Assembly (NCBI RefSeq): GCF_035920365.1
Contig: NZ_CP109150.1
Location: forward strand, 4,402,001-4,466,000
DNA: 64,000 nt
DNA from: Micromonospora sp. NBC_01740
GTDB lineage: Bacteria > Actinomycetota > Actinomycetes > Mycobacteriales > Micromonosporaceae
Direction of reading: 5' to 3'
Shown here: in pieces, positions 22,801 through 42,000 of the stretch
Layout: each line of letters starts with the position of its first letter
How positions within the stretch are numbered: the first letter of the stretch is position 1
The notes under the pieces: model-generated
What the model saw: only the letters and a program-made list of their open reading frames with translations
Databases searched by the model: none
What the model was told of the DNA's origin: nothing
Position numbers and translations under genes: made by a program

Positions 22801-25800
22801 TGGCGCCGCTCCCGGCGGGAACGCTCCCTCGTGGACGGCTGGTCGTACCAGGTGACCTGGCAGCCCGTGCCGGTCGAGGACGGCGACGGCCCGGCGGGCC
22901 GCTGGCTGGTCGTGCTGCCGGCCGACGACGCGCCGGCGTGGGCCGACGGCCTGGCCGGGCTCTTCGGCGACGACGAGCCGCTGGTGCTGCGCGTCGGCGC
23001 GGCGGACCTCGACCGCGCGGCGCTCACCGCCCGGCTGCGGGACCTCCTCGACGGCCGGCCGGTCGACGGCGTGCTCGCCGTGGTCGCCGGCCAGGACCGG
23101 CTGCTGGCCGAGCACCCCGGCGTGACCCTCGCCGCGGCCAGCACCCTCGCCCTGGTCCAGGCGATGACCGACCTGGACCTGGTGGCGCCGCTGTGGTGCG
23201 TCACCAGCGGCGCGGTCGCGGCGGCCCCGGGCGACCGGGTCGCGCACCCGTTGCAGACCGAGGTCTGGGGCCTCGGCCGCGCGGCGGCCGTCGAGCAGCC
23301 GCACCGCTGGGGCGGCCTGGTCGACCTGCCGGCCACCGTCGACGACGCCACCACCCGGCGGCTCGCCGCCGTGCTGGCCGGTCACGTCGGCGAGGACCAG
23401 GTGGCCGTCCGGCCCGGCGGGACCTGGGCCCGCCGGCTCACCCCGGCCCCGCCGGCGGCGGACGAGCCCCCCACCGGCGACTGGTGCTCCGGCACCGTCC
23501 TGGTCACCGGCGGCACCGGCGCCCTCGGCGGCCACGTCACCCGCTGGCTGCTCGGCCGCGGCGCCGGGCGGGTGGTCCTGGCCAGCCGCCGGGGCACCGC
23601 CGCCCCGGGCGTGGCGGACCTGGTCGACCGGTACGGCGCCGACGGGCGGGTCACCGTCGCCACCTGCGACGTCACCGACCGGCGCTCCGTGGCGGACCTG
23701 GTGGACGCGCTGCCCGACCTGACCGCGGTCGTGCACGCCGCCGGCACCGACCAGCTCACCCCGCTGACCGACACCACCCTCGACGAGTTCTCCCACGTCG
23801 TCGCGGGCAAGGTGCTCGGCGCCCTGCACCTCGACGCCTGCCTCGCCGAGCGCGACCTCGGCGCGTTCGTCATGTTCTCCTCCATCTCCGGCGTGTGGGG
23901 CAGCGCCGGGCAGTGCGCCTACGGCGCCGGCAACTCCCTGCTGGACGCCCTGGCCGTCAACCGGCGCGACCGGGGCCTGCCGGCCACCGCCGTCTCCTGG
24001 ACGGCCTGGGGCGGCGAACACGGCATGGCCGCCGAGAACGTGGCCACCGAGCAGCTCAACCGGATGGGCCTGCCGCCGATCGACCCGGAGAAGGCGCTCG
24101 TCGCCCTCGACCGGGCGCTGCGCCGCCCGACGCCCTGCGTGACCGTCGCCGACGTCGACTGGAGCCGGTTCCACCCCGCGTTCACCGTGGCCCGGCCCAG
24201 CCCGTTCCTGGGCGGCGTGCCGCAGGTGCGGGCGCTCGTCGCGCAGGAGGAGGAGGCCGCCGCGCCCACGGGCGGGGTCGCCGCGCCGCTGCGTCACCTC
24301 GCGGCGCTGCCGGCGGCGGAGCAGGAGCGGGAGCTGCTGCGGCTGGTCAACGAGCAGACCGCCGCGGTGCTGGGCCACGCCACCCCCGACGAGCTGCGCG
24401 GACGCCCGTTCAAGGACCTCGGCTTCGACTCGCTGACCGCCGTGGACTTCCGGGGACGGCTGAACGCGGCCACCGGCCTGCGGCTGCCCACCACGCTGGT
24501 CTTCGACTACCCCACCCCCGCCGAGCTGGCCGCGCACCTGCGTGAGCTGGTCTCCGGCGCCACCCCGGCCGACGCCCCGCAGACCGTCGTCGTCGACGCC
24601 GACGAGCCCGTCGCGATCGTCGGGATGGCCTGCCGCTACCCCGGCGGCGTCGACGGGCCGGAGGCGTTCTGGCGGCTGGTCGCCGACGGGGTGGACGCCA
24701 TCTCGCCGTTCCCCACCGACCGGGGCTGGGAGATCCCCGAGCCGGCGGAGGGGACGCACCCCCCGGCGGGCGGCTTCCTCTACGACGTGGCGGACTTCGA
24801 CCCCGCCTTCTTCGAGATCTCGCCCCGCGAGGCCCTCGCCATGGACCCGCAGCAGCGGCTCGCCCTCGAAACGTCCTGGGAGGCGCTGGAGCGGGCCGGG
24901 GTGGACCCGGCGACGCTGCGCGGCACCCGCACGGGCGTCTTCGTGGGCGCCTCCACCTCCGGCTACGGCACCGGGCTGACCGAGGTCCCCGAGGGCGTCG
25001 AGGGCTACCTGATGACCGGCGCCGCGCACAGCGTGATCTCCGGCCGGGTCGCGTACGCCCTCGGGTTGGAGGGACCCGCCGTCACCGTCGACACCGCCTG
25101 CTCCTCGTCGCTGGTGGCGCTGCACCTCGCCGGGGCGGCGCTGCGGCGCGGCGAGTGCGACCTGGCGCTGGCCGGCGGCGTGGCCGTGATGGCCACCCCC
25201 ACGGCGTTCCAGGAGTTCTCCCGCCAGGGCGGCCTCGCCTCCGACGGGCGGTGCAAGTCCTTCGCCGCCACGGCGGACGGCACCGGCTGGTCCGAGGGCG
25301 TCGGCATGCTGCTCGTGCAGCGGCTCTCCGACGCCCGCCGGCAGGGCCGGCGCATCCTCGCCGTCGTACGCGGCTCCGCCGTGAACTCCGACGGCGCGTC
25401 GAACGGCCTGACCGCCCCCAACGGCCCCTCCCAGCAGCGGGTGATCCGGCAGGCGCTCGCCAGCGCCCGGCTGGCGGTCACCGACGTGGACGTCGTCGAG
25501 GCCCACGGCACCGGCACCGTCCTCGGCGACCCGATCGAGGCGCAGGCGCTGCTCGCGACGTACGGGCAGGACCGGGGCGACGCGGGCCCGCTGCTGCTGG
25601 GCTCGGTGAAGTCGAACATGGGCCACGCGCAGGCCGCCGCCGGCGTGGCCGGCGTGATCAAGATGATCCTGGCGATGCGGGAGGGCACCGTCCCGGCGAC
25701 GCTGCACGTGGACGAGCCGTCGCCGCACATCGACTGGTCCTCCGGCGACGTGGAGCTGGTGACCCGGTCCCGGCCGTGGCCGGCGGTCGACCGGCCCCGC

Positions 25801-39000: not shown

Positions 39001-42000
39001 CCACGCCGCACCGGTCGCGGCCACCGACGTGGCCGACCTCGCCGACGCCCTGCGGGCCAAGGTGGCCGGCGCGGTCAACCTCGACGAGGTGTGCGGCGAC
39101 GAGCTGTCGGCGTTCGTGCTCTTCTCCTCCGGCGCGGGCGTCTGGGGCGGCGGACACCAGGGCGGCTACGCCGCGGCCAACGCCTTCCTCGACGCGCTCG
39201 CCGAGGACCGGCGCCGGCGCGGCCGGGCCGCCACCGCCGTCGCCTGGGGCGCCTGGGACGGCGGCGGCATGGTCGACGCCGAGGGCGCCGCCGACCAGAT
39301 GTTCCGCTCGGGCGTGCGGGCCATGCGCCCCGACCTCGCGGTCTCCGTCCTGGCCGAGGCGTTGGACCACGGCGACACCACGCTCACCGTGGCGGACATC
39401 GCCTGGGACCGGTTCCTCCAGACCTACACGCTGGCCCGCCCCCGGCCGCTGATCGCCGACGTCCCGGAGGTGGCGCGGCTGCTCGCCGCCGGGCAGCGCG
39501 ACGGCGACGGGCCCGACGCGGCCTCGCCGCTGCGCGGCCGGCTGGCCGGACTCGCCGCACCGGAACGGCGCCGCGTCCTGCTCGACCTCGTCCGGGTCCA
39601 CGCGGCGGCGGTGCTGCGACTGTCCTCGCCGCAGGCGCTCGCGGCGGACCGGTCGTTCCGGGAGATCGGCTTCGACTCGCTCAGCGCCGTCGAGATGCGC
39701 AACCGGCTCGCCGAGGCGGTGGGGCTGAACCTGCCGGCGACCCTGGTCTTCGACCGCCCGACGCCCGACGCCCTCGCCGAGCACCTGGCGACCCGGCTCA
39801 CCGGCGACGACACCCCGGCGGCCGAGCCCGTGCGGGCCGCCACCGCGCTGGACGAGCCGATCGCCATCGTCTCGATGAGCTGCCGCTACCCCGGCGGCGT
39901 CGCCGGCCCGGAGGACCTGTGGCGACTCGTCGCCGAGGGGCGCGACGGCATCGCGGAGTTCCCGGCCGACCGGGGCTGGGACCTAGCGGCGATCTACGAC
40001 CCCGATCCCGACCGGCCCGGCACCTCGTACGTGCGGGAGGGCGGCTTCCTCACCGACGCCGCCGGCTTCGACGCCGCCCTGTTCGGCATCTCCCCGCGCG
40101 AGGCGATGGTGATGGACCCGCAGCAGCGGGTGCTGCTGGAGAGCGCCTGGGAGCTGTTCGAGCGGTCCGGCACCGCGCCGGCCGACATGCGGGAGACCAA
40201 CACCGGCGTCTTCGTCGGCACCAACGGCCAGGACTACGCGACGCTGCTGATGGCCGCCCGGGTCGAGACCGAGGGCTACCAGGCCACCGGCAACGTCGCC
40301 GCCGTCATCAGCGGTCGGCTGGCATACCACTTCGGGTTGCAGGGCCCGGCCGTCAGCGTCGACACCGCCTGCTCGTCGTCGCTGGTGGCGCTGCACCTGG
40401 CCTGCCAGTCCCTGCGGCAGGGCGAGTGCGACGTCGCGGTCGCCGGCGGCGTGACGGTGATGGCCACCCCCGGCCCGTTCCTGGAGTTCGCTCGGCAGCG
40501 GGGGCTGGCCCTCGACGGCCGGTGCAAGTCGTTCGCCGGGGCCGCCGACGGCACCGGCTGGGGCGAGGGCGTCGGCCTGGTGATGTTGCAGCGGCTCTCC
40601 GACGCCCAGCGCGACGGCCGCCGGATCCTGGCCGTCGTGCGCGGCTCGGCGATGAACCAGGACGGCGCCAGCAACGGGCTGACCGCCCCCAACGGACCGG
40701 CGCAGGAGCGGGTGATCAGCCAGGCGCTGGCCAACGCGCGGCTGACCGCCGCCGACGTGGACGCCGTCGACGGGCACGGCACCGGCACCCGCCTCGGCGA
40801 CCCCATCGAGGCGCAGGCGCTGCTGGCCACGTACGGGCGGAACCGGCCCGCCGACCGGCCGCTGCTGCTCGGCTCGGTCAAGTCGAACATCGGCCACACC
40901 CAGGCCGCCGCCGGCGTCTCCGGCGTGATCAAGATGGTGATGGCGCTCCAGCACGACCTGCTGCCGCCCACCCTGCACGTGGACGAGCCCTCGCCGCACG
41001 TGGACTGGTCGGCGGGCGCGGTCGCGCTGCTGACCGAGGCGCAGCCGTGGCCGGAGGCGGACCGGCCGCGCCGGGCCGGCGTGTCGTCGTTCGGGGTCAG
41101 CGGCACCAACGTGCACGTCATCCTCGAGCAGGCGCCCGCCGCCGCGCCGGCCGACACCCCGACGCCCCGGCCGGCCGACGGACCGCCGGTGCTGCCCTGG
41201 GTCGTCTCGGCCGACGCCGCCAGCGGCCTGCGGGCCCAGGCGGCCCGGCTGGCCGACTGGCTGCCGGGCACCGCGACGCCCGCCGCCGACGTGGCCCGGG
41301 GACTGGCCACCGGACGCTCCCCGCTGCGGCACCGCGCGGTGCTGCTCGCCGCGGACGCCGACGCCGCCCTCGCCGGCCTGCGGGCACTCGCCGCCGGCGA
41401 GGAGCACCCCGGACTCACCCGGGGCGTCGCCGAGCCCGGCGGCGCGCTGGCGGCGCTCTTCTCCGGCCAGGGCGCCCAGCACGCCGGGATGGGCCGTCGC
41501 CTGTACGAGACGTTCCCGGTCTTCGCCGCGACGGTCGACGAGACGTGCCAGCACCTGGACGCGTACCTGCCACGGCCGCTGCGCACGGTGCTCTTCGCCG
41601 AGCCCGGCACCGCCGAGGCCGACCTGCTCGACCAGACGGCCTTCACCCAGGCCGGGCTCTTCGCCGTCGAGGTGGCGCTGTTCCGGCTGCTCGAACACTG
41701 GGGGATCCGGCCCGACTTCGTGGCCGGGCACTCCGTCGGGGAGATCAGCGCGGCCCACGTGGCCGGGGTGCTCGACCTGCCCGACGCCTGCGCGCTCGTC
41801 GGCAACCGGGGCCGGCTGATGCAGGCCCTGCCCGCCGGCGGCGGGATGCTCGCCGTCGCCGCGCCCGAGGTCGACGTGCTGCGGGCGCTGGACGGCACGT
41901 CGGGACAGGTCGCCGTCGCCGCCGTGAACGGGCCGGCCGCCGTCGTCGTCGCCGGGGCGCAGGACGCGCTGACCGAGCTGGCCGACCACTTCGCCGGCCT

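Follow-up and report, generated by a model that had tools for sequence, protein, structure and literature searches.

Apparent repeated loss of the acyltransferase core in two modules of a quinolidomicin-type polyketide synthase of Micromonospora

The cluster and its two gutted acyltransferase domains

We analysed a window of 64,000 nucleotides (G000:C1:4402001-4466000) from a closed, single-contig Micromonospora genome of 7.3 Mb. The window lies inside a type I polyketide synthase (PKS) cluster spanning approximately 4319227 to 4503162, which has 13 PKS genes and in which a motif-based module finder recognised 33 extension modules. The cluster starts with a CoA-ligase-like (CoL) loading module and ends with a thioesterase-like (TE) domain, both identified by reading and not by profile. 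Its gene and module order is that of the quinolidomicin (qnm) cluster in Table 3 of PMC8698034, and the parts of PMC8698034 and PMC9054317 that describe the qnm PKS give the same CoL loading, 13 PKS genes, 33 modules and terminal TE, so that, judged by its sequence, the cluster is a quinolidomicin-type PKS. Two of its modules, M19 and M21, carry gutted acyltransferase (AT) domains, and these are the subject of this report.

All the features given below are on the forward strand and are numbered within the window. PKS gene A6 (19828..29997) encodes M18, consisting of ketosynthase (KS), AT, ketoreductase (KR) and acyl carrier protein (ACP) domains, followed by M19 (KS-AT remnant-dehydratase (DH)-KR-ACP), in the order of Table 3 of PMC8698034. 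PKS gene A7 (30041..44656) encodes M20 (KS-AT-DH-KR-ACP), M21 (KS-AT remnant-KR-ACP) and M22 (KS-AT-KR-ACP).

The KS of M19 (24604..25710; Pfam KS and motifs) has its Cys-His-His residues intact and is followed by a KS-AT linker, a gutted AT and a post-AT linker (25843..27111), delimited by alignment and a structure model. In this AT, GDGDGE (26488..26505) stands where GHSQGE is expected, so that the nucleophile is lost, and the scar ELDPDGL (26590..26610) marks a deletion of 75 residues from the small AT subdomain; in comparison with an intact orthologue these residues are absent between Ser+31 and Ser+112. Farther along, the remnant contains a repeat-like insert of ADPTGLG units (26716..26805). 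The DH of M19 (27184..27840) has its HxxxGxxxxP and D..H motifs, the KR (28678..29211) has a histidine at the catalytic-Tyr position (HAAAN, 29119-29142), and the ACP (29536..29736) has an intact LGFDSL motif.

The organisation of M21 is similar. Its KS (35492..36619) has intact Cys-His-His residues, and the KS-AT linker, gutted AT and post-AT linker extend over 36752..37861 (alignment, model and fold match). GHAHGE (37352..37369) replaces the expected GHSQGE, again with loss of the nucleophile, and at the scar DADPGAL (37445..37465) 83 residues of the small subdomain are gone, between Ser+32 and Ser+116 of the intact orthologue. The KR (38726..39259) and the ACP (39590..39787) have intact YAAAN and IGFDSL motifs, respectively. 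We take the stretch excised in both modules to be the ferredoxin-like subdomain of ATs. The remaining 31 of the 33 modules of the cluster retain GHSxGE and the histidine of the second motif.

The best stretch of M19 covered positions 1-120 of the 319 positions of the Pfam AT profile (66.9 bits) and that of M21 positions 2-119 (119.3 bits), with a second, weak piece of M21 at positions 206-317. A structure model and a fold match were obtained for the M21 remnant, while the model of the M19 remnant was weaker (pLDDT 66.8). The initial annotation, in which M19, M21, M24 and M26 were called 2B, 3B, 4B and 5B, had stated that 2B and 3B lost the nucleophile and nearly the same 75 or so residues while the shell of the AT was kept. 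The losses of 75 and 83 residues agree with the first statement, and the structure models and fold match agree with the second as far as the retained fold is concerned.

Distribution of the lesions among relatives

We searched 160 Micromonospora genomes. A close M21 orthologue (E 1e-70 or better) was found in 27 of them, the present genome included; at E 1e-75, the M19 stretch matched sequences in 22, paralogues included. The M18-M24 region was compared in 26 relatives, up to the contig ends, two of which (G059 and G100) were too short for M19. The AT was gutted in M19 of 12 of 25 genomes and in M21 of 13 of 27. Among the 25 genomes, 11 had both ATs gutted, one had only that of M19 (G088), two had only that of M21 (G072 and G068) and 11 had neither. 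Insertions of 8-32 residues were present at the site of the ADPTGLG insert in 9 of the 12 M19 remnants. The intact orthologues of both ATs have GHSQGE and, where it was read, YASH, which are of the methylmalonyl type, in agreement with the ancestry proposed for both ATs in the initial annotation.

Repetitive PKS DNA of high GC content is easily misassembled, and an artefact of assembly or sequencing might have been suspected on that general ground. However, other assemblies show the same lesions with further substitutions and different breakpoints; since relatives share them, the lesions are no sequencing artefact, and we give this explanation practically no weight. The antiSMASH tables of PMC8698034 also list M19 without an AT in AK-AN57 and M21 without an AT in M. 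okii.

The reading of seven clusters covered most of their length and yielded 220 modules, among which eight, all of them M19 or M21, had shortened ATs. The module finder missed modules in three genomes, G012, G033 and G068, where it found 30, 30 and 28, respectively. Two full-length ATs failed the motif screen, one in M12 of G033 and the other in the last module of G019. The former, in the 11th module found (M12 by position), reads GHSQSE and FPGYGGHH where the usual motifs are expected, and may be a further methylmalonyl position at which the AT has begun to decay.

The serine was gone from all 12 M19 remnants, while it was retained in 3 of the 13 M21 remnants, as GHSQGE in G019 and G072 and as GHSHGE in G077. 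Since these three gutted ATs still have the serine, the subdomain was excised before the nucleophile was lost in those M21 lines, and the order that we propose, excision before serine loss, is drawn from these three sequences. The breakpoints also varied: M21 of G072 lacks Ser+25 to +85 and retains a histidine near the second motif, whereas other deletions reach up to Ser+119.

Separate losses in M19 and M21

An AT tree of 82 rows placed the 12 M19 remnants in a single clade (100/100) and the 27 M21 rows in a second one (100/100), located on different methylmalonyl branches. The clade of M19 remnants was sister (98/84) to a group in which five intact M19 orthologues stand together with five ATs from other modules of the present genome (M24, M27 and M29-M31), while eight other intact M19 ATs grouped together farther out in the tree. 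This scatter of intact M19 ATs points to exchange of ATs between modules, and gene conversion has blurred the orthology of M19. The M21 remnants were on the other methylmalonyl side of the tree, with M9, M2 and M26. The nearest ATs guessed in the initial annotation (4B for 2B and 5B for 3B) were therefore broadly right, and so was its proposal that the two ATs decayed independently: sister remnants would have contradicted it, and the two sets are not sisters. A single decay followed by duplication was rejected, the M19 and M21 remnants being in separate parts of the tree.

On module trees built without the AT (25 rows each), parsimony required at least one change of state for M19 and three for M21, whereas on the rpoB tree the minima were three and five, respectively. 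The larger numbers on the rpoB tree make transfer between species likely as well, and such exchange complicates the count of losses. These parsimony counts carry no direction, and loss was assumed because the intact M21 ATs are orthologous to one another. Depending on the rooting, the M21 lesion of G019 may or may not share its origin with that of the main clade, and the AT tree favours neither reading. The sequences thus indicate that the AT core was apparently lost separately in M19 and in M21, and more than once among relatives.

Retention of and selection on the remaining domains

The cysteine and both histidines of the KS were found in 25 of 25 genomes, in M19 and M21 alike. The serine motif of the ACP was present in 25/25 genomes for M19 and in 26/27 for M21, the remaining contig being too short. 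The tyrosine of KR21 was present in 26/26, although the cofactor-loop pattern failed in three (G072, G033 and G068), and the DH19 motifs were present in 25/25. In KR19, HAAAN stands in place of YAAAN in 25/25 genomes, AT-intact ones included, and the domain stays constrained; judging by this motif, KR19 may be redox-inactive or may have another role.

Median ratios of nonsynonymous to synonymous substitution (dN/dS) were obtained from eight genomes among the 11 that carry both lesions. They were 0.57 and 0.67 for the AT remnants of M19 and M21, respectively, and 0.05-0.18 for the KS, KR and ACP domains of these modules. DH19 had a ratio of 0.34 versus 0.31 for DH20, and the live ATs of M18, M20 and M22 had ratios of 0.21-0.39. 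In the 11 genomes without lesions, the AT ratios were 0.36 (M19) and 0.32 (M21). Within the domain, pN/pS around the nucleophile was 0.67-0.68 in dead ATs versus 0.04-0.17 in live ATs of neighbouring modules of the same 8 genomes, and that of the M19 KS-AT linker was 0.22 (95% range 0.11-0.38) versus 0.37-0.46 in live modules. Purifying selection acts on the KS, KR and ACP domains and has relaxed in the AT remnants.

Relaxed selection on the remnants is what would be expected if the cluster, or this part of it, were decaying and the full-length product no longer made. This is very unlikely, however, since M19 and M21 have no flagged stop codons, their other domains are under purifying selection, and the lesions occur in 12 and 13 genomes while the rest of the line is kept in the clusters that were read. 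The same data bear on programmed skipping, suggested in the initial annotation, in which the growing chain would pass M19 and M21 unextended. The lost AT nucleophiles, the failure to find a dedicated discrete AT and the KR19 without tyrosine all fit skipping. KS histidines are needed for decarboxylative condensation, however, and these residues, the tyrosine of KR21 and the serines of the ACPs are kept in domains under purifying selection.

Candidate loaders of M19 and M21

A search of the whole genome with PF00698 gave 50 matches, one of which was in a short frame (415 residues) and the others in frames of at least 1678 residues. By reading, the short frame is FabD, and FabH-, ACP- and FabF-like genes come after it; the names fabD, fabH and fabF are presumptive, being assigned by eye. 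Among the non-PKS open reading frames (ORFs) of at least 120 residues with a GC content at third codon positions above 0.86 between 4300001 and 4526000, GHSxG occurred in one only, a thioesterase. Besides FabD, no dedicated discrete AT was found by the whole-genome search and the reading of ORFs around the PKS genes. The discrete AT that the initial annotation had imagined as serving both modules thus did not materialise, FabD being the sole free-standing AT found in the genome, and a dedicated enzyme of this kind was rejected as the loader.

We also looked for discrete ATs in four other genomes with lesions. G034 had one short AT frame, of 415 residues. G008 had a frame of 415 residues and further matches in frames of 914 and 1109 residues, and G031 had a frame of 415 residues and one match below the cut-off in a frame of 825 residues. 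In G072, a frame of 337 residues was accompanied by others of 725, 928, 1111 and 1186 residues.

The present cluster is therefore not organised as a trans-AT PKS, since these searches found no dedicated discrete AT and 31/33 modules have an AT, and corresponds to an AT-null situation, in which the catalytic residues of the AT are gone, the KS and ACP are intact and a free malonyl transacylase (FabD) is encoded. The ATs nearest to M19 and M21, those of M18, M20 and M22, are of the malonyl type. The AT of M20 (GHSIGE and HAFH; 31751..32725) is a candidate loader for ACP19 and that of M22 (GHSVGE and HAFH; 41456..42415) for ACP21. In the part of PMC6164871 dealing with AT6-null DEBS, the synthase was fed by the malonyl-CoA:ACP transacylase of S. 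coelicolor and gave a desmethyl product. This precedent and the malonyl type of the neighbouring ATs make malonyl the most likely extender irrespective of which enzyme provides it. As candidate loaders, FabD and the neighbouring malonyl ATs are indistinguishable here.

Both modules could instead extend with methylmalonyl supplied from elsewhere in the line (M24, M26 or others), in which case the methyl branches would be kept. Eight ATs of the cluster are of the methylmalonyl type, as were the ancestors of the M19 and M21 ATs, which speaks for such a supply. We nevertheless regard it as improbable, because the nearest ATs, AT18, AT20 and AT22, are of the malonyl type and because M12 and M23, malonyl-type here and methylmalonyl-type in some relatives, indicate a general loss of methyls.

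Ring size and methyl pattern

Module k of the 33 supplies C(2(33-k)+1) and C(2(33-k)+2), and the following carbon is the site of action of its KR. Quinolidomicin is described in PMC9054317 as a 60-membered ring. With 33 extensions, a ring of this size has its lactone oxygen on C59, which is the beta-carbon of M5; according to Table 3 of PMC8698034, M5 is the first module that has no DH. If one or both of M19 and M21 were skipped, the lactone oxygen would fall on M4 or M3, respectively, and the hydroxyl used for closure would come from a module that carries a DH. The catalytic histidine and aspartate of DH3 and DH4 are kept by reading, and both domains have HxxxD instead of HxxxG. The DH of M1 lacks the histidine by reading, with no bearing on ring size. 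Extension by all 33 modules best accounts for the 60-membered ring, and this indirect argument, together with the retained KS and ACP sites and the purifying selection, leads us to consider skipping unlikely.

If M19 and M21 extend with malonyl, the missing methyls are expected at C30 (M19) and C26 (M21), counted back from C1. The initial annotation had suggested that methyl branches may have been edited out, and this would be the likeliest outcome. By position, M12 and M23 (M23 AT at approximately 46384-47358) are of the methylmalonyl type in some relatives and of the malonyl type here, and in the AT tree both ATs of the present genome sit among malonyl ATs. Methylmalonyl ATs are found in 8 of 33 modules here versus 12 of the 30 found in G033 and 11 of the 30 found in G012. 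The switch of M12 and M23 to malonyl and the gutting of M19 and M21 indicate that methyl positions were apparently lost by two routes in this lineage.

Other features of the cluster

Approximately 5 kb of non-PKS DNA (14743-19827) separates M17 from M18 and encodes a PrsW-family protease and two other ORFs without a Pfam match. A 3-dehydroquinate synthase-like gene adjoins the cluster (L031:17173-18213) and would be consistent with a starter of the aminobenzoate type and with the amino group that the quinone of quinolidomicin is reported to carry. Strong joint blocks of GC skew (0.16-0.26) and AT skew (-0.17 to -0.37) at 4001-5000, 7001-8000 and 33001-35000 resemble the genetic repeats of intense nucleotide skews (GRINS) reported for cis-AT PKSs in the relevant part of PMC10394414.

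Discussion

The evidence is best accommodated if M19 and M21 are naturally AT-null and nevertheless continue to extend the chain, charged with malonyl from outside, with two methyls erased, and we consider this probable. In each of them the small AT subdomain, located within the alpha/beta-hydrolase core, was cut out in frame, and the serine motif has degenerated. The KS-AT linker, the hydrolase shell and the post-AT linker, as seen in the alignments and models, are left as a folded spacer. ACP19 and ACP21 would be charged with malonyl by FabD or by AT18, AT20 and AT22, and the loss of methylmalonyl-type ATs would leave the product without two methyl branches. Excision may recur because it ends catalysis yet leaves a compact core, as modelled, that could hold the geometry between KS and ACP.

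Several observations weigh against this explanation. The Tyr-to-His change of KR19 in 25/25 genomes means that M19 is no standard module even with an intact AT. The dN/dS of ACP21 is 0.16, above that of other ACPs (0.05-0.11), and the pN/pS of the M21 KS-AT linker is 0.63 (0.37-1.02), not tighter than the values of live modules. The suggestion of the initial annotation that the shell is retained as a KS-AT scaffold consequently holds for the strongly constrained linker of M19 and not for that of M21. The presence of FabD is weak evidence for a role as candidate loader, since it is a housekeeping enzyme. The ring argument assumes active DH3 and DH4 and lactone closure on the M5 hydroxyl, and the HxxxD motifs of these DHs slightly lower our confidence in extension by both modules and slightly raise that in skipping. 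The ring size, moreover, comes from the product of another strain and not from that of any genome analysed. Finally, Table 3 of PMC8698034 labels M21 of the reference producer as ATmm; because the present M21 remnant still scores 119 bits against Pfam AT, such a label is no proof of an intact domain.

AT-less or AT-dead modules in natural cis-AT lines are already published, in the parts of the sources that concern irumamycin (PMC11672594) and haliamide (PMC6274090). Module 12 of irumamycin is a cis-AT module that lost the serine of its AT, and AT11 is put forward by its authors as the loader of the next ACP; the change there is Ser-to-Gly with low motif similarity in a single module, whereas here a subdomain is excised. 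Modules 2 and 5 of the haliamide hybrid of PKS and nonribosomal peptide synthetase are AT-less in an otherwise cis-AT line and incorporate malonate; a stand-alone malonate-type AT is present in that genome, whereas none besides FabD was found here. AT6-null DEBS, as described in PMC6164871, also has a methylmalonyl module without a working AT that was fed malonyl in trans with loss of the methyl, but it was engineered in one module, whereas the lesions of M19 and M21 are natural and recurrent, and we infer their loader and product. The AT-less modules of trans-AT PKSs, according to the account in PMC11907408, are loaded in trans and still have a KS-AT linker, whereas here 31/33 modules keep their own AT. 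The terms module 19, module 21 and AT domain were all absent from the text of PMC8698034 when it was searched for them, and our literature search found no account of subdomain excision or of its recurrence; the original description of qnm was outside its scope and may note it. The recurrent natural excision of the small AT subdomain within one family looks like a new form of a phenomenon already known.

More tentatively, and with rather more doubt than conviction, subdomain excision could be a recurrent natural switch from methylmalonyl to malonyl, with FabD or a neighbouring AT taking over, and thus a frozen first step from cis-AT to trans-AT. If so, two routes to one chemical edit, gutted ATs and the malonyl ATs of M12 and M23, coexist in this line. 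Pfam still recognises the first third of each gutted AT, and automatic annotation may therefore call the remnants ATs; domain callers may label them methylmalonyl ATs, and the methyls predicted on that basis may be absent from the product. What engineers have done by inactivating ATs and supplying modules in trans, evolution seemingly did repeatedly in one giant line. The intact, half-gutted and fully gutted forms of M19 and M21 across Micromonospora constitute a natural series on how modules survive the loss of an AT and how they are loaded, and the same series bears on how cis-AT lines could become trans-AT.

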